NCBI RefSeq assembly: GCF_024347675.1
Contig: NZ_AP024882.1
Location: forward strand, 1,752,306-1,816,305
DNA: 64,000 bases
Origin: Vibrio ishigakensis
GTDB lineage: Bacteria > Pseudomonadota > Gammaproteobacteria > Enterobacterales > Vibrionaceae
Direction of reading: 5' to 3'
Shown here: in pieces, positions 48,771-56,212 of the stretch
Layout of the letters: every line of letters begins with the position of its first letter
Numbering within the stretch: position 1 is the first letter of the stretch
Program-made: the position numbers and the translations under genes
The notes under the pieces: model-generated
Seen by the model: the letters and a program-made list of their open reading frames with translations, nothing else
The model's database searches: none
Told to the model about the DNA's origin: nothing

Positions 48771-49406
48771 ATGAGAGACAGGGTGAAAAATCTAACTCAC
48801 AAGAGAAAGTGGCAAATTGGCGCACTAAGCCTAATAGCAATATCGGCCTTAACTTTGAATAAATGCGCTGCGAGTAGCCAATCGACAACCCAAGAGGCTC
48901 AGGCACTCATAAGCCACCTAGATCTGGTGCTTGATGCTGCTAATCAGTATGCCATCGACAATGGTGAGGTTTTGCCTATTACCTCAGATACCGACCCAGC
49001 TTTTGGGTATCTCGATATTGATCGCTTAATCAAAAACCCCGGTCTCGATACTTGGCAAGGTCCCTACCTTTCCTACTCAGATACTTGGCTAGGCGGAGAG
49101 CAATACATAGGTCATCCTGATTATCTTGCGACCCAACTCCTAGCTAAAGAAAAAGGGAGTGAGTGGGTCCGAGGCAGTACGCCGGAAGGGTGCAGCTCTA
49201 CATCAGAGGCATGCTCAATAGCCGCGTGTATCTGGATAGTTCCTTTGGCGGTGGCCCAAGAGATAAACACCATGATTGATGGAGTGAACAGCCAAGAGAG
49301 CTCTGATGCGACAGGCATGATCAGGTATGACAAGGCGCTCTACGGGGGTATAGTCTGTAAGGTTGGTGGCGAGTATCCGGTTAGTCTCCCCAATCACGAC
49401 GATTAG
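48771..49406 (+). CDS. Pseudopilin-like membrane-anchored protein
   Basis: 211 residues. One membrane span near residues 14-32 is followed by a long helix (ALISHLDLVLDAANQYAIDNG) and a LDTWQGPYLSYSD motif similar to the W-G-x-P-Y region of GspG-type pseudopilins, then a Cys-rich segment (GCSSTSEACSIAACIW). A proper prepilin peptidase site (Gly-Phe-Thr-Leu-Ile-Glu) is not seen, so it may not be processed as a pilin. Stands alone, no other pilus genes nearby. Start uncertain: a downstream GTG is possible. Confidence 0.55.
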   Translation: MRDRVKNLTHKRKWQIGALSLIAISALTLNKCAASSQSTTQEAQALISHLDLVLDAANQYAIDNGEVLPITSDTDPAFGYLDIDRLIKNPGLDTWQGPYLSYSDTWLGGEQYIGHPDYLATQLLAKEKGSEWVRGSTPEGCSSTSEACSIAACIWIVPLAVAQEINTMIDGVNSQESSDATGMIRYDKALYGGIVCKVGGEYPVSLPNHDD

Positions 49407-49469: not shown

Positions 49470-50693
49470 TCAACATTGCATCGCGTCTCTTCTTAGCACC
49501 CTTTTCAAAGCAAAAGCAGAACTGCTTATCACCGCGACTAACAACATTAACCAATAAGCCCCCACGACGCCCCATAGGCTTGCCGACACGCCAGCTATTA
49601 GATAGGTCAATAACCACCAAAAGTGGGTCAATGAAAAGTGAGCAGCAAACAGTTTACTCGCGTCTTTTCCATTTGAGGCATCGTTGATAATTAAACCTGA
49701 GGTGGTCTGGATACATGACATTCCCACCCCAAACAAGAAACAAAGCACTAGATAACCAATCCAGCTTGGTAGCCAAGTTCCAATAAAAAAAGCTAAACAT
49801 ATCAAGAACAAGCCAAGAGCCTGACTGCGATGTAGGTTTACTGGTGAAACAACTTTAGGCAAAGATACAGCCACAAGCATTGAACCGAGCCCTACCGCTA
49901 GCATGGCTAACGCCGTTTCGCTGCTTCCTCCGCCGAGTATCTCATGCACATACACAACCGTATTCACTATGACCATAGCACTGGCTGATGCGGTCGCTAG
50001 ATACGCATACCAGAGCGAGCGCAACGATGGTTGAGATAGATAGCCAATCAAACCATCAAACAATATACGCAAGTTAAGCTTCTCTACCTTCTGACTGGAT
50101 AGGTCTTCAGTAGAAGCAAGGCAGTGCAATATCAGCAGTGCCGATACGAAAAAAGTCACCGCATCAATCCAAAATAGATACTGAAAGCTCATTACCGATA
50201 ATAAAACGGCACTCAATATCGGGCTCAATATCTGCTCCAAATCGTATGCGATTCGACTATTTGATAATGCCCTAGTGTAGTTATCTCTATCTGGTAATAC
50301 CTGCGGAAGCGTCGCCTGATACAAAGGGGTAAACGCCGCAGAGCAGGTGTTAATCAAAAACATCAACACATATACCTGCCACACCTCGCTGACAAAGGGT
50401 AAGCCTATGATCAAGCAAGCTCGAATCAAGTCGAGCAAAACCAGAGCATTTCGCTTTGGCCATCGCTGACTCAATACAGAGAAGACAGGTGCAAGGGCTA
50501 TATAAGCCAACATCTTAAGGGCGAAGGCTATACTCAGCACCACGCTAGCATCAGCTTTTGCTAAGTCATAAGCCAGCAGAGCCAAACAAACAGAACTAAT
50601 GCCAGTTCCAGCTAAAGAGATGACCTGCGCTAGTAACAAGCGCAGGTAGTTTCTGTTCTTCCATAACGAAAGACTGGGGCTAGAAACGGTCAT
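49470..50693 (-). CDS. MFS exporter in the MurE-like operon
   Basis: 407 residues with 12 spans, of the MFS_3/EntS-like drug-efflux group: NYLRLLLAQVISLAGTGIS start, VFSVLSQRWPKRNALVLLD loop between spans 2 and 3, and a central cytoplasmic loop (STEDLSSQKVEKLNLR). Its start overlaps the stop of the carboxypeptidase gene (ATGA). In this operon it may export a cell-wall fragment, a modified peptide or a toxic compound; nothing in the sequence decides. Confidence 0.82.
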   Translation of the reverse strand: MTVSSPSLSLWKNRNYLRLLLAQVISLAGTGISSVCLALLAYDLAKADASVVLSIAFALKMLAYIALAPVFSVLSQRWPKRNALVLLDLIRACLIIGLPFVSEVWQVYVLMFLINTCSAAFTPLYQATLPQVLPDRDNYTRALSNSRIAYDLEQILSPILSAVLLSVMSFQYLFWIDAVTFFVSALLILHCLASTEDLSSQKVEKLNLRILFDGLIGYLSQPSLRSLWYAYLATASASAMVIVNTVVYVHEILGGGSSETALAMLAVGLGSMLVAVSLPKVVSPVNLHRSQALGLFLICLAFFIGTWLPSWIGYLVLCFLFGVGMSCIQTTSGLIINDASNGKDASKLFAAHFSLTHFWWLLTYLIAGVSASLWGVVGAYWLMLLVAVISSSAFALKRVLRRDAMQC

Positions 50694-51877
50694 GACGCAC
50701 CGCTAAATAAACGACCAATATCGGCTAATACGACTGACAGCCAGAGCAGAAAGGCATCTTTTAGTCGTTTGAACAGCGACCCTGCCTCTACATCTGAGGC
50801 ACTTTTAACCTCTGAAGATTTAACCTCTCGGCCATCCACACTCCAGATCACTTTTCCTATGGTTTGCCCCTTAGCTATTGGCGCTTTGAGGTTAGGCTCT
50901 AACTCTAATTCCTGTTCAAGAGACGCAGCTTGAGTCCTCGGAACGGTTAAAAAAAGATCTTGCTCAAGAGCAACCGCTACCGAATCACGGTTTCCTTGCC
51001 ATACATCCGCCTCGTAGATAACCTCATCTTTGGTAGCTACTTGCAAGGTTTCAAAGAATCGAAAACCATAGTTCAGCAGTTGCCTCGACTCATTTACCCT
51101 TATTTGAGAGCCAGCTGTCCCCATCACTACAGAAATCAGCCTCATTTTTCCCTGAACTGCAGAAGAGACTAAGCTAAAGCCTGCATTTTCGGTGTAGCCA
51201 GTTTTTCCGCCATCCACATTTAAGGTCTTGTCCCACAGCAACTTGTTACGGTTGTATTGTTGTATCCCAGCCCAAGTAAAGCTGCGTTTTTCATACAAGG
51301 CGTAAACCTCGGGAACATCCTGAATCACTGATTTAAGTAGCAACGCCATATCTCTTGGAGTACTGCTGATATCCTCACCGTCTAACCCGTGAGCATTCAC
51401 AAATTGGGTATTGCTCATACCTAAAGACTGGGCCCATCCGTTCATCAAGCTTACAAAGGCAACCTCATCACCCGCCACATGTTCAGCCAGCGCCACCGCT
51501 GCATCGTTGCCTGACTGAATTATCAATCCAAGCATTAGCTCCTTAACTGTGACGGCATCGCCTGGCTTGATAAACATCTTGGAGGACTCCGGAAAGTTCG
51601 CAGACCAAGCCTTGCGACTCACGGCAACCGGTGTATCCCATGTAAGTCGCCCACTCTCTATCTCTTTACCAACCACATAAGCTGTCATCAACTTGGTCAA
51701 ACTGGCGGGTGCAATAGGCACATCGGCATTGTTTTGTGCAAGAATATCCCCAGAATTAAAGTCCATCAGGACATATCCTTTAGCACTCAATTCAGGGGGT
51801 TCTGGAATCACAACTGCATGCGCCATTGATGTGATGAAAGCGGAGAATATTAGAAACAAGGAAGTCATGAATTTCAT
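50690..51877 (-). CDS. D-alanyl-D-alanine carboxypeptidase, PBP5-like
   Basis: 395 residues. Signal peptide (MKFMTSLFLIFSAFITSMAHA), penicillin-binding domain with Ser59-x-x-Lys62 in ASLTKLM, Ser122-Gly-Asn in SGNDA and Lys225-Thr-Gly in KTGYT, then the PBP5 beta-rich second domain and a C-terminal amphipathic helix (FKRLKDAFLLWLSVVLADIG) for membrane attachment. It trims the terminal D-Ala from pentapeptides. Position between a MurE-like and an MFS gene, with four-base overlaps at both ends, is unlike the usual dacA locus (near rlpA/lipB), so it is probably an extra paralogue. Confidence 0.88.
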   Translation of the reverse strand: MKFMTSLFLIFSAFITSMAHAVVIPEPPELSAKGYVLMDFNSGDILAQNNADVPIAPASLTKLMTAYVVGKEIESGRLTWDTPVAVSRKAWSANFPESSKMFIKPGDAVTVKELMLGLIIQSGNDAAVALAEHVAGDEVAFVSLMNGWAQSLGMSNTQFVNAHGLDGEDISSTPRDMALLLKSVIQDVPEVYALYEKRSFTWAGIQQYNRNKLLWDKTLNVDGGKTGYTENAGFSLVSSAVQGKMRLISVVMGTAGSQIRVNESRQLLNYGFRFFETLQVATKDEVIYEADVWQGNRDSVAVALEQDLFLTVPRTQAASLEQELELEPNLKAPIAKGQTIGKVIWSVDGREVKSSEVKSASDVEAGSLFKRLKDAFLLWLSVVLADIGRLFSGAS

Positions 51878-53310
51878 ACTGCCTCCACTTGCGTTAGCGC
51901 GGCCAAGTCACCCACATAATGGTGTCTTTGGGCTTTGCCATCACTGATATACTGGAAGGTCTCGTTTCCTTTACCACACACAACGATAAGATCGTCTTTC
52001 TCGCTAAGCTGCTTGGCCAGTTTGATCGCTTCTGCCCTATCACTGATCTCAAAATATGGCGTGCTTCCCACTCTTGAGCGCAACACCCGAAACAACTCAC
52101 TTTGCACCACACCCATAGGGTTATCTGAGGTGAAAATAACCAGTTCGGCATACCTTGCACACATGGCCCCTATGTCACCTGCTTGTTGAATGCGATCGCC
52201 AGTCACGCCCACAACCACGATCAATCTTCGCTTAGCATGCTCACGCACCGCTTGAAGTAACGCATTCAGACCGTGGCTGTTGTGCGCATAATCCACCAAG
52301 CCTATCGAGCCATTACTTAGCCCAACAAACTGCGCTCTTCCTTCTGGCATTTGTAAGCCTTCAATGGCTGTTGCTACTCGCGATAAATCCCAGTCAAGAA
52401 TGGAGAGTACGCTAGCAATGGCTAGCGCATTTTCTACGTTGTAGCTAAACGGCATAGGCGAGTTCACCTCGATGCACTCTTTGCCATTGGATAATGAGAA
52501 ACGCATTCCCCTAGGGCTTGTCTCGATGCGAGTTGCGATGAGATCAGCCAGAGGGTTTTGGGTGGAAAAACTAAAGATATTTACCCCTTTTGACGCCCTC
52601 TCTATGGCCGCAAGAGCGTGTGGGTCATCAAGGTTCACTATCAAAGTTCCGCCCGATTGAATGCGATCAACCAACTGCAGTTTTGCCTGAACATAACCAT
52701 CTTTAGTGCGATGAAAATCTAGATGGTCTTCCCCAATATTGGTGATGACCCCTAGCTCAAGTGGGACAAACCCTGCTCTGTCTTGAGTAAGGGCATGGCT
52801 GCTCATTTCCATTACATTGAATTCAGTTACGCTATGGCACATCTGACTAAAGATATTAAGAAGGGTCACTCCATCAGGAGTGGTGTTATTAAGGGGGATT
52901 TCATAGTCAGCAAGTTGGGCGCCTAGAGTGCCTATATAGGCACTGCGACTCTCAAGGTTGAGGATCTGGTTAAGGCAGTGAGAAACCGTGGTTTTACCGT
53001 TTGTACCGGTTACGCCAATATGGCGCAGTTTCTTGTGCGGGTGTTTATAAAACGCCTTAATCAAAGCCAGACTTTGATAATGACTTTCGGTCACAATCAC
53101 AGGAACGGGAAGTGCCATTGGCTTGTTGGCAATCACAGCTACGGCACCTTGCTCTACAGCGTGCTGCGCAAAATCATGCCCATCTACAGTGATGCCCTTA
53201 CGACACACAAATACATCATTTTGTTCTACATCAGCACTATTGGTTTTAAACAACCTGATCTCTAGCGCGTTTAATCTTTCTACTTGTTTTGATATGGCAT
53301 TGGTAAGCAT
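51874..53310 (-). CDS. MurE-like Mur ligase, divergent
   Basis: 478 residues with the three Mur-ligase domains. Intact are the P-loop GTNGKTT (102-108), NTTPDG (142-147), MSSHAL (169-174), TNIGEDHLDFH and Lys210 for carbamylation in QAKLQL. The meso-diaminopimelate-recognition motif DNPR is changed to DNPM (396-399) and GKGHE to GKGNE (446-450), so the added amino acid may not be meso-Dap. It is not in a dcw cluster and heads an operon with a PBP5-like enzyme and an MFS exporter; a LysR gene diverges. AAGGAG precedes the ATG. MurE-like is safe; the reaction is unknown. Confidence 0.85.
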   Translation of the reverse strand: MLTNAISKQVERLNALEIRLFKTNSADVEQNDVFVCRKGITVDGHDFAQHAVEQGAVAVIANKPMALPVPVIVTESHYQSLALIKAFYKHPHKKLRHIGVTGTNGKTTVSHCLNQILNLESRSAYIGTLGAQLADYEIPLNNTTPDGVTLLNIFSQMCHSVTEFNVMEMSSHALTQDRAGFVPLELGVITNIGEDHLDFHRTKDGYVQAKLQLVDRIQSGGTLIVNLDDPHALAAIERASKGVNIFSFSTQNPLADLIATRIETSPRGMRFSLSNGKECIEVNSPMPFSYNVENALAIASVLSILDWDLSRVATAIEGLQMPEGRAQFVGLSNGSIGLVDYAHNSHGLNALLQAVREHAKRRLIVVVGVTGDRIQQAGDIGAMCARYAELVIFTSDNPMGVVQSELFRVLRSRVGSTPYFEISDRAEAIKLAKQLSEKDDLIVVCGKGNETFQYISDGKAQRHHYVGDLAALTQVEAV

Positions 53311-53368
53311 TTTTCACTCCTTCTTTCAAAGCTGATCGGAGTGTAAGTCGCACTAATACATTAATGAA

Positions 53369-53397
53369 ATCGAATGATTTTATCGAATGTATCGAAT
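53369..53397. promoter_or_regulatory. Three ATCGAAT direct repeats in the LysR/MurE-like promoter region
   Basis: ATCGAAT occurs at 53369, 53382 and 53391 within the 122 bp divergent spacer. Spacing is 13 and 9 bases. These are candidate binding sites for the divergent LysR regulator. Confidence 0.5.
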
Positions 53398-53432
53398 AGA
53401 CTAATTGATAAATTCATCCGCTCAACTCATTC

Positions 53433-54371
53433 ATGACAGAGATAAACTGGCAACGGGTAGACCTTAATCTGCTCCTTACTTTCGATGCCCTCTTTCAACA
53501 TCGCAGTGTCTCCAAGGCTGCGGAGTCCCTACACCTAGGGCAGCCTGCGACTAGCTACAACCTAAAACGGCTTCGTGAGCTTCTGTCTGACCCCTTATTT
53601 GAGCGTGATGGAAATGTGATGCGTCCAACCACCAGAGCGTATGAGATAGAACCTAAAGTCAGGCAAATCATGAGGATCTTCAGTCAGGAAATCTTGAGTA
53701 CCAATGGGTTTGAACCAGCGCAATTTGAAGGGCTGTTCAAGGTAGGCTTTAGCGACTACGCTGAGCAAATCTTTGCTCCTCAGCTTTTTGACCAACTTCA
53801 GAGCCTAGCGCCCAACGCAAAGGTGCTATTCAAGCCAGTAGATACCAGTAATTGTGTGGAGTTACTCGAAGCAAGAGAAGTGGACCTTTGCATCGGGGTG
53901 TTTTCTGAACTTCCCAATAAGCTCAGAAGCACCTCTCTTTACCGAGAACGACACTTGTGCACCTTTGACAACACGGTTCTCAACTGTAACTTGCCTATCT
54001 CTCTTGAAGATTATCTGGATACACCTCAGATGATCATCACGGCCAATCAAGCTCTAACCAGCCAAGTGGACAAAACCCTTGCTCAGATGGAGATAAAACG
54101 CAACGTAGTGTTGGGTACCACCCGATTTCTGACAATTCGACGCATGCTCACTGGCAGGCGGGTGTTGGCTGTGATGGCAGAGATGGTGGGAAGGTCGACC
54201 TTGATCGAAGACTCACTAACCCTTTGCGAGCCACCTATCGATATTCCAGACTTCGATGTTGAGATGGTCTCTTTGCGAGGGGATAGCCAACATCCACGGA
54301 TCCTATGGTTATCTGAGTTGGTTAAGGAAGTGGTGACGGAAAAGGTCACGCGCTTGCGCGGTGAGAAATAA
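53433..54371 (+). CDS. LysR-family regulator divergent from the MurE-like operon
   Basis: 312 residues of the NodD/NahR-like LysR subgroup. N-terminal winged helix: VDLNLLLTFDALFQHRSVSK, then AAESLHLGQPATSYNLKRL (about 8-50). The effector domain has FKVGFSDYAEQIFAPQLFDQ. It lies back to back with the ligase/carboxypeptidase/exporter operon and most likely controls it. A terminator shared with the zinc genes closes it. Confidence 0.86.
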   Translation: MTEINWQRVDLNLLLTFDALFQHRSVSKAAESLHLGQPATSYNLKRLRELLSDPLFERDGNVMRPTTRAYEIEPKVRQIMRIFSQEILSTNGFEPAQFEGLFKVGFSDYAEQIFAPQLFDQLQSLAPNAKVLFKPVDTSNCVELLEAREVDLCIGVFSELPNKLRSTSLYRERHLCTFDNTVLNCNLPISLEDYLDTPQMIITANQALTSQVDKTLAQMEIKRNVVLGTTRFLTIRRMLTGRRVLAVMAEMVGRSTLIEDSLTLCEPPIDIPDFDVEMVSLRGDSQHPRILWLSELVKEVVTEKVTRLRGEK

Positions 54372-54402: not shown

Positions 54403-55026
54403 TTACAGAACGCGCTTAACCTCAGCGTATTCTCCATTGGTTTTTAGTATCACCATGACTGTCTTGTCATTGCGATTGCGGAAAAACCAACCATGGTTAC
54501 CCGTGAAAGCCGCAACCAATTCGCCCTCGGCGTTCGGTACCCCTCGCCCTTTCTCATAGCTGATCGATTGACCGTTTCCATCACCATGGGTATCAAAGTT
54601 CACTGGGCCACCTTTTGCGGTCCATTGAAATTGAGCCACCTGCCCCTCTTGCATGACCAATTTCACTTCAGCCCCTTGTCCAGGCTTTAGTGAAATAAGT
54701 ACCCGGTCTTTCCACTCAGCTGTTGAAGCACTGTTATCCTCGACCGCTGTAGTGGATACAACCGTCTTCTGGACAACAGGTTTCGAAGCTAGAGCCTGAG
54801 CTCTTGCCTCATCTTCTTTAGCCTCTTGCTCTAATTGCGCCTTGATCTCCCCCATCTCAGTGAGGCCCAAAGCCCTGCCGACACCCGTTGGGTCAATGGC
54901 ATATTCGGCAGGCAGAATGACAGTCACCAGTATTACTGAGGCACTAACCAGTGCGATTAGGGTTGAACGAACAAGCTGGCCGTTAGTCGGCAATTGCGCT
55001 CGAGTTGGCATATCTGAGTTATACAT
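54403..55026 (-). CDS. Membrane-anchored periplasmic protein linked to HupE/UreJ
   Basis: 207 residues: a cytoplasmic start of about 20 residues, one membrane span (LIALVSASVILVTVILPAEY), a coiled-coil-like acidic stretch (EMGEIKAQLEQEAKEDEARA) and a periplasmic beta-rich domain with QFQWTAKGGPVNFDTHGDG and FTGNHGWFFRNRNDKTVMV. Proteins of this type occur beside HupE/UreJ-like genes in marine bacteria. As third gene behind a Zur-type box it is probably part of a zinc uptake system, perhaps holding or delivering metal in the periplasm. Function unproven. Confidence 0.7.
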   Translation of the reverse strand: MYNSDMPTRAQLPTNGQLVRSTLIALVSASVILVTVILPAEYAIDPTGVGRALGLTEMGEIKAQLEQEAKEDEARAQALASKPVVQKTVVSTTAVEDNSASTAEWKDRVLISLKPGQGAEVKLVMQEGQVAQFQWTAKGGPVNFDTHGDGNGQSISYEKGRGVPNAEGELVAAFTGNHGWFFRNRNDKTVMVILKTNGEYAEVKRVL

Positions 55027-55044: not shown

Positions 55045-55770
55045 TTATTGAGCGACAACGTAGCCAGTTAATTGATAACCGATGAGCATAAAACCTAGGC
55101 TCATCATCAGGATATTGACCGAATAGGCCTGACGAACAAAACCCTGATGCCTTCGCCAAAAACCCATCACAATCAAAATGGTGCCAAGAGCAATTAACTG
55201 CCCTATTTCGACACCCACGTTAAACGCCAACAAGTTAGGAACTAACCCGTCAGGTGAAATATCGTATTCGATAATCTTAGAAGAGAGACCAAAGCCGTGG
55301 CAGAAGCCAAACAGCAAGGTCGCAAGCTTGGTATTAGGCTGTACACCAAACCAACGCTGAAATGCTCCAACATTATCCATCGCCTTGTAGACCACGGATA
55401 AGCCAATAATCGCATCGATGATGTAGCTATTGATACCAATATCAAAGTACACACCAAGCAGCATGGTTGAAGAATGGCCCAGCGCAAATAGGCTCACATA
55501 CAGAGCAATATCTTTCATCTTATACAGAAAGAAGATCACCCCGAGTAAGAACAGAATATGGTCATATCCTGTCACCATGTGTTTAGCTCCCAGATACATA
55601 AACGCAATGATGTTGGTGCCAGTGATTTCTTGGATATAGCCTTTATCGCCTTGTGCTACCGCATGGGCAAACACATCTGTGCTCACCACAGTCGCCAAGG
55701 CTAAAAAGAGGTACAGCGTCCCCTTGCGCAGGGTCGAGTTAGTGACTGCGCTTAAAGAGAAAAAATTCAT
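55045..55770 (-). CDS. HupE/UreJ-family membrane protein, probable metal transporter
   Basis: 241 residues with a signal-like first segment and about six to seven spans. Family motifs: GYDHILFLLGVIFFL, FALGHSSTMLLG and FGFCHGFGLSSKI, placing conserved Asp and His in the membrane as in HupE/UreJ metal permeases. HupE/UreJ proteins are usually linked to nickel or cobalt, but the Zur-type box ahead of the gene set points to zinc. It lies between the His-rich protein and the anchored protein genes. Confidence 0.82.
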   Translation of the reverse strand: MNFFSLSAVTNSTLRKGTLYLFLALATVVSTDVFAHAVAQGDKGYIQEITGTNIIAFMYLGAKHMVTGYDHILFLLGVIFFLYKMKDIALYVSLFALGHSSTMLLGVYFDIGINSYIIDAIIGLSVVYKAMDNVGAFQRWFGVQPNTKLATLLFGFCHGFGLSSKIIEYDISPDGLVPNLLAFNVGVEIGQLIALGTILIVMGFWRRHQGFVRQAYSVNILMMSLGFMLIGYQLTGYVVAQ

Positions 55771-55821: not shown

Positions 55822-56184
55822 TCAAACGACTAATAAGTCTCTGGGAGGACGCTTTATCAAAAACGGTTCATAGAGTGGTCTTCCATCAGGTTGACCTTGG
55901 GAAATGGAAGTGAGTTCAACAATCAAGGATGTGGATACAAGAGATCTTAAGTTCGCGCCATCATAGGTATGGTGGTGATTACTCGCGTCATGATGGAAGG
56001 TTTGTTCACTGTCGCTTGCATGAGAATGACTCGATGAGTGAGAATGTTCATGGACACTCGCCATCGACAAACTGTGGGAGCGAAACTCACCAATGGTCGA
56101 CGATGTCATAGAAAGTACGACAACGAACAGCATCACGGTGCTGATTAATCGATTTGTTGTCATAGAGTCCATCTGGGGCATCAT
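55822..56184 (-). CDS. Small His-rich membrane-associated protein
   Basis: About 120 residues. A hydrophobic segment (LISTVMLFVVVLSMTSSTIG) precedes a cluster with HEHSHSSSHSHASDSE and FHHDASNHHHTYDG, a strong zinc-binding pattern, and a basic end (LIKRPPRDLLVV). I start at ATGATG with AAGGA 10 bases upstream; a GTG slightly earlier or an ATG at 56163 are alternatives. It is first gene after the Zur-type box, so it is probably a zinc-scavenging or zinc-chaperone protein. Confidence 0.7.
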   Translation of the reverse strand: MMPQMDSMTTNRLISTVMLFVVVLSMTSSTIGEFRSHSLSMASVHEHSHSSSHSHASDSEQTFHHDASNHHHTYDGANLRSLVSTSLIVELTSISQGQPDGRPLYEPFLIKRPPRDLLVV

Positions 56185-56212
56185 GCCAGTCACATCCTTG
56201 TAGAAACGTGAT

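Follow-up and report, generated by a model that had tools for sequence, protein, structure and literature searches.

The third residue of the peptidoglycan stem peptide is commonly regarded as fixed per species. In the MurE ligases that add meso-diaminopimelate (mDAP), an arginine holds the distal (D-centre) carboxylate of mDAP while an Asp and a Glu hold its amine, and the lysine-adding MurE of S. aureus is without that arginine (PMC3829189). Of the nickel exporters, NreB is presented in PMC9195940 as a Ni2+/H+ antiporter of the TIGR00900 type, and NcrA/NcrC in PMC3046157 as a nickel efflux system. Here, we describe a gene cassette of Vibrio ishigakensis that brings relatives of both groups together: a MurE-like ligase, a D,D-carboxypeptidase resembling penicillin-binding protein 5 (PBP5), a major facilitator superfamily (MFS) exporter and a divergent LysR-type regulator. 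It lies in the window, the whole 64,000-nt stretch of DNA that was analysed (C2:1752306-1816305, in a two-contig genome of 4.79 Mb total). There is good support for the cassette as a real, conserved and regulated unit whose MurE-like ligase is of a non-mDAP kind.

The ligase (478 aa; 51874..53310, minus strand; Pfam Mur_ligase, Mur_ligase_M and Mur_ligase_C) is followed on the same strand by the carboxypeptidase of family S11 (50690..51877; Peptidase_S11 and PBP5_C) and by the exporter, an NcrA/NreB-like protein of the TIGR00900 type (49470..50693; MFS_1). Each of the two junctions is a 4-base overlap, and a gap of 122 bp separates the ligase from the LysR gene on the plus strand (53433..54371; HTH_1 and LysR_substrate). 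Coordinates and domains agree with the first-pass annotation, which had described three such overlapping genes divergent from a LysR gene. Of the 15 loci compared, 14 share the 4-base overlap between ligase and PBP and 9 that between PBP and MFS.

The ligase and its amino-acid pocket

The window ligase is the only one of seven Mur_ligase_M genes to lie on contig C2. The other six are on C1, and motif typing, which covered one of these six, identifies the gene at C1:391141 as a canonical murE with DNPR and GKGHE; the window ligase is therefore not the sole murE, and a housekeeping role for it was rejected. All 22 carriers of the ligase clade among 197 Vibrionaceae genomes (members being 43-100% identical) likewise have a second MurE match of the 28-33% type, at housekeeping level, with motifs typed in 5 of the 22 (the window's own genome, G108, G131, G139 and G185).

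Both motif changes reported in the first-pass annotation are present: DNPM (52114..52125, minus strand) replaces the mDAP carboxylate-binding Arg by Met, and GKGNE (51961..51975, minus strand) keeps the catalytic-site Glu and replaces the His. In an alignment of 33 clade members (L044, on the same contig as L038, was left out), the Arg is replaced by L, M or Q in 33/33, the KRP loop beside the changed position is lost or reshaped in 33/33, and the Asp, Asn, Glu and alpha-carboxylate Arg are retained in 33/33. The Arg is also absent from 26/26 clade proteins found in a database search (DNPx = M or L; 15 of them outside the 33-row set), while 14/15 comparison MurEs keep it. This pattern, with the Arg gone and the Asp and Glu kept, is that of lysine-adding MurE (PMC3829189).

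Profile scores place the ligase within MurE (337 against a TIGR01085 cut-off of 257, with all Mur ligase domains present) and short of the substrate-specific models: the best mDAP equivalog, NF001126, gives 364.5 against 373, and the L-Lys model NF010628 gives 248 against 536. The Asp and Glu for the epsilon-amine are in place as in a Lys-adding pocket. The predicted structure has the full three-domain MurE fold, with Lys-MurE 4c12 as its best match. A branch with an SH-aLRT (SH-like approximate likelihood ratio test) value of 100 splits the 33 clade members from 15 MurEs in a tree made by a quick method, with a midpoint root and a long branch for the S. aureus row. In a profile search, full-length clade members are set off by a gap, scoring E <= 8e-198 where the next MurE has 1e-116.

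We give little credence to the view that the ligase is a spare, mDAP-adding stress MurE whose motif changes are neutral. The unchanged fold and catalytic residues would suit such an enzyme, but the uniform loss of an Arg that nearly all comparison MurEs keep, the reshaped KRP loop next to it and the strong purifying selection described below argue against it. The first-pass description of a second, non-housekeeping MurE-like enzyme with a changed amino-acid pocket, sharing a conserved operon with a PBP5-like protein and an exporter, is supported.

Three further MurE-like proteins were noted. P0061, outside the clade, has DDPF and GKGGE replacing DNPR and GKGHE; in L058 (9115-13298), a solitary DNPQ ligase lies downstream of genes for a Dcu transporter, MmgE/PrpD and an aspartase/fumarase-type lyase; and Salmonella record H32 is annotated as a second MurE.

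Distribution and regulation of the cassette

Of the 197 Vibrionaceae genomes, 22 have a member of the ligase clade and 24 one of the pump clade (25 matches at 1e-60, from which G051, at 35%, was set aside); 18 have both (Fisher 6e-17). Ligase and pump lie within one gene run in 18/18 of the shared genomes. Neither of the two outcomes that the first-pass annotation had named as refuting its proposal, a genome without another murE and genes that do not stay together in relatives, was observed. The complete LysR-ligase-PBP-MFS set is found in 13 of the 22 ligase genomes; the PBP is absent, as judged within ~8 kb, in three (G121, G133 and G148), ligase and MFS are without an adjoining LysR in three (G113, G137 and G146), and the ligase stands alone in three (G139, G141 and G150). 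In G146 the LysR orthologue is on a different contig, the ligase contig being just 3.5 kb long. LysR adjoins the ligase or the pump across Vibrionaceae, directly facing the pump in 6/6 of the pump genomes without ligase. With dN/dS (nonsynonymous to synonymous substitution rates) of 0.04-0.16 over 19 gene-pair comparisons, the ligase, carboxypeptidase and pump are intact and under purifying selection.

The full gene set is also present on a 519-kb Vibrio plasmid. In a tree of the pump with its relatives, in which several forks are open, pump-only rows are nested inside the cassette clade, which suggests that the ligase was lost at least twice. (The MFS and LysR trees without outgroup were midpoint-rooted; L055, L078 and L022 were omitted from the MFS alignment and L078 from the LysR alignment.) Beyond the family, no clade member was found in 368 other genomes of a class sample, where four matches of 33-35% have DNPR/GKGHE, and the three found in an order sample of 295 genomes were all known already. 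The database search returned at least 26 clade proteins, from Vibrionaceae, two named Ferrimonas and P0024; this list is incomplete, because 7999 candidates were scored and 43-45% identical Photobacterium-group members found in the family genomes were missed. A phage or virus origin was considered and rejected: one viral scan gave no relative, and the phage-record matches are ordinary MurE of 26-33%, their sources being either chromosomal contigs filed in error or records without annotation.

The carboxypeptidase is of the PBP5 type, with the motifs SLTK, SGN and KTG in the window protein, in addition to PBP5_C, and SxxK, SGN and KTG kept in 14/14 cassette PBPs. It is the third S11 gene of the genome, the other two being on C1, and in the tree the cassette PBPs group together, separate from the housekeeping PBPs.

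Between ligase and LysR lies a conserved putative operator box, TCGATTTCATTAAT (53360..53373, minus strand), followed 14 bp on by the -10-like hexamer TACACT (53340..53345, minus strand); upstream of the box, on the side of LysR, there is a second half of the TTATCA type at about 53390-53411. In 22 of 24 upstream regions, a -10-like hexamer follows the box TCRATTT(C/T/A)A..RAT at a spacing of exactly 14 bp, a fixed operator-promoter distance that points to a LysR-activated divergent operon. The pattern was written after viewing the alignment, L049 was read separately since the pattern had caught an earlier site, and the 22 regions are not 22 independent cases because several loci are close kin. 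In the two regions without the box, L055 and L056, LysR also lacks its first 79-88 residues and with them the DNA-binding part, and in L055 the MFS is interrupted as well; both cassettes appear to be in decay. The exact 17-base site (53360-53376) occurs once in the window's own genome. A regulon beyond the operon was rejected: a pattern search of the genome gave a single exact site plus two that carry 2 mismatches, and the reversed control gave two. One putative operator layout precedes the ligase operons, the pump-only loci and a gene block in G163 described below.

No gene family beyond the cassette's own four is conserved beside it, except among close relatives (21 loci compared). This bears on the possibility that the product of the ligase is a small soluble chelator or a peptide amide (a metallophore or signal), which the MFS would export and the periplasmic carboxypeptidase trim. 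The gene runs shared by ligase and pump in 18 genomes, and the absence of the DSR/KRP signatures from the ligase alone, would fit such a product. However, the UDP (uridine diphosphate)-binding domain and the residues that we take to form the dipeptide site are kept in the ligase clade, the full MurE fold is predicted, further biosynthetic gene families are not conserved alongside, and the ligase is also found without the pump; we consider this possibility distinctly unlikely.

Some loci have neighbours of their own. In L059 (5483-7727) and L060, HlyD-type and DUF2955 genes (typed in L059) lie directly upstream of ligase and MFS on the same strand. In L094 (5217-6488) a LuxM-type acyl homoserine lactone synthase gene (Pfam AHL_synthase, 1e-113) adjoins the LysR/MFS pair; no such gene was seen among the selected neighbours typed beside the other five LysR/MFS pairs.

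The pump and its nickel-exporter relatives

The window MFS shares 43.9% identity with an NcrA (annotated NICKEL class, with NcrB and NcrC adjoining) and 42.9% with a NreB, and is a TIGR00900-type protein nearest to these two; its TIGR00900 score of 224 is below the cut-off of 320, as is that of NcrA itself (303 of 320). Eight other genomes of the 369-genome class sample have pump relatives (37-46%). Metal genes lie beside the relative in five of the seven class-level loci opened, with none in two: a CusA/CzcA resistance-nodulation-division (RND) pump with HupE; a CusA/CzcA RND pump with a cation diffusion facilitator; HupE with an anchor and a His-rich protein; an SO_0444-type Cu/Zn exporter; and an FrmR/RcnR-type repressor. 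On plasmids, metal-sensing or metal-efflux genes adjoin the MFS in 6/6 loci opened of the 646 records with a match. The cassette is not itself an ncr, nre or rcn operon: LysR takes the place of an RcnR/NcrB-type repressor, no RcnA or NcrC gene lies beside the pump in the window, and an RcnA search of the window's own genome, run without a positive control, gave no match.

Beyond LysR, outside the conserved unit, the cassette adjoins a trio of minus-strand genes for an anchor protein (54403-55026), HupE_UreJ_2 (55045-55770) and a small His-rich protein (55822-56193). The HupE has 73-80% identity to its counterparts next to the NcrA-type pumps of Halomonas, Rhizobium and L125. The same His-rich/HupE/anchor block follows an RcnA/NcrC-type gene in three of seven other Vibrionaceae HupE loci examined (L151, L152 and L154), RcnA and RcnR of L152 scoring above the NCBIfam cut-offs. 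In G163, which has the LysR and neither ligase nor pump, the putative operator with its -10 box is found immediately ahead of genes for PRK09272-like, His-rich, HupE and anchor proteins; we read this arrangement as the LysR regulon of the cassette apparently switched onto a Ni/Co-type block. HupE as a fixed part of the cassette was rejected on its weak co-occurrence with the pump. On the other side of the cassette, a pseudopilin-like orphan open reading frame (48771-49406) has homologues of 56% identity at two places: close to the cassette of plasmid pTHAF190c_b (L077), with the annotation type II secretion system protein, and next to the His-rich/HupE/anchor trio of L153.

The first-pass annotation had taken the MFS for an exporter of drugs, wall fragments or peptides. 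That role is not supported, because the pump's closest kin outside the cassette are nickel exporters of the NcrA/NreB type, situated in metal-resistance loci, and because the putative operator of the cassette also precedes the Ni/Co-type block of G163. Both observations also count against a resistance module directed at a toxic amino acid or an antibiotic that acts on the wall, with the MFS for efflux, the ligase as an insensitive or bypass MurE and the PBP5-like enzyme as a substitute or sink. Target bypass plus efflux under a LysR would make such a module; also in its favour are the altered pump core and missing His tail described below, the HlyD/DUF2955 pump pair upstream of ligase and MFS in L059, and the drug pumps of the MFS superfamily, although the pump's MefA match (33 bits) is far below the cut-off of 675. 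We regard this reading as possible, if on balance somewhat unlikely. Muropeptide recycling, or the export of wall fragments as signals, is very improbable: an operon of carboxypeptidase, MFS and Mur ligase would suit it, but the MFS resembles Ni exporters rather than a muropeptide permease, and no hydrolase or amidase is conserved beside the cassette.

A metal-response reading and its comparison with known systems

We tentatively favour a LysR-activated, transition-metal (Ni/Co-type) response operon that also changes peptidoglycan precursors. LysR, on its signal, would activate the divergent promoter; the MFS would export the metal or a metal complex; MurF would complete the precursor and the PBP5-like enzyme trim its D-Ala end. 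The altered stems would then be without mDAP's free amino-acid end, at which Ni, Cu or Co might be chelated, or the ligase would bypass a metal-poisoned MurE step. That the operon responds to metals is likely, by indirect evidence; that it alters the wall we infer from its enzymes. Rather doubtful is the more specific proposal of an inducible wall-chemistry switch for metal stress in Gram-negatives, under one LysR operator. In place of mDAP, a dedicated MurE paralogue would then add either a residue that lacks the chelating amino-acid end or a metal binder such as His; a carboxypeptidase dedicated to the task would trim the product, and a pump of the nickel-exporter type would be induced along with the two enzymes.

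Several observations weigh against a metal-response operon. The cassette genes are lost separately, with the ligase lacking a pump in 3 genomes and accompanied by a broken one in 1, the pump lacking the ligase in 6, and the PBP missing in 9/22. The cassette pumps form their own branch; the His-rich C-terminal tail of 10/13 relatives is present in 0/24, the Cys of 13/13 relatives is Trp in 24/24, and the pump's other conserved residues are common to the outlier L099, so that the substrate may have changed. HupE and pump co-occur weakly (5/24 versus 13/173 in the 197 genomes; Fisher 0.05), and the window is the only one of the loci opened where trio and cassette are neighbours. A LysR metal site was sought in its conserved His and Cys residues and rejected, since H174, C176 and H287 are also found in 6/6 paralogues and thus show no such site. 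No publication tying nickel to MurE was found in the open-licence literature searched, and wall terms are absent from a paper on Acidiphilium nickel determinants.

Open-licence full-text literature, which excludes most subscription papers, yielded no description of this gene set, in line with the first-pass view of it as undescribed. Of the functions proposed there, a change of the stem peptide remains likely; recycling and the production of a peptide compound found no positive evidence.

If our reading is correct, a horizontally distributed, regulated non-mDAP MurE in mDAP bacteria would make the third residue a regulated trait, with consequences for cross-linking, wall hydrolases and wall-acting drugs, and the link to a nickel-type pump would raise the hardly studied question of whether bacteria alter the wall in order to cope with metals that are toxic to them. 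The kinship of the cassette pump to the NcrA/NreB nickel exporters is new here.

Compared with the mDAP-adding MurE of E. coli (PDB 1e8c), the ligase forms a separate clade in which DNPR becomes DNP(L/M/Q), GKGHE becomes GKGxE, and DSR and KRP are lost. It shares ~30% identity with the Lys-adding MurE of S. aureus (PDB 4c12), from which it differs in having L/M rather than A, a rebuilt KRP/KTP loop, a host with a normal mDAP-type MurE and a position outside any wall gene cluster. The carboxypeptidase has the S11 catalytic motifs and PBP5_C in common with PBP5/DacA (best PDB match V. cholerae-type 5tr7) and is set apart by its own clade, a hydrophobic C-terminal extension and an operon with a Mur ligase. 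Like NcrA/NirA and NreB, the pump is an MFS protein of the TIGR00900 type, with 43-44% identity over ~95%; unlike them, it is without the His-rich tail and has a LysR gene where they have an NcrB/RcnR-type regulator. With the RcnR/RcnA Ni/Co efflux loci of Vibrionaceae, finally, the cassette shares the His-rich/HupE/anchor block, which adjoins it in the window and follows its operator in G163, whereas LysR and MFS stand where those loci have RcnR and RcnA, and the wall enzymes are added.

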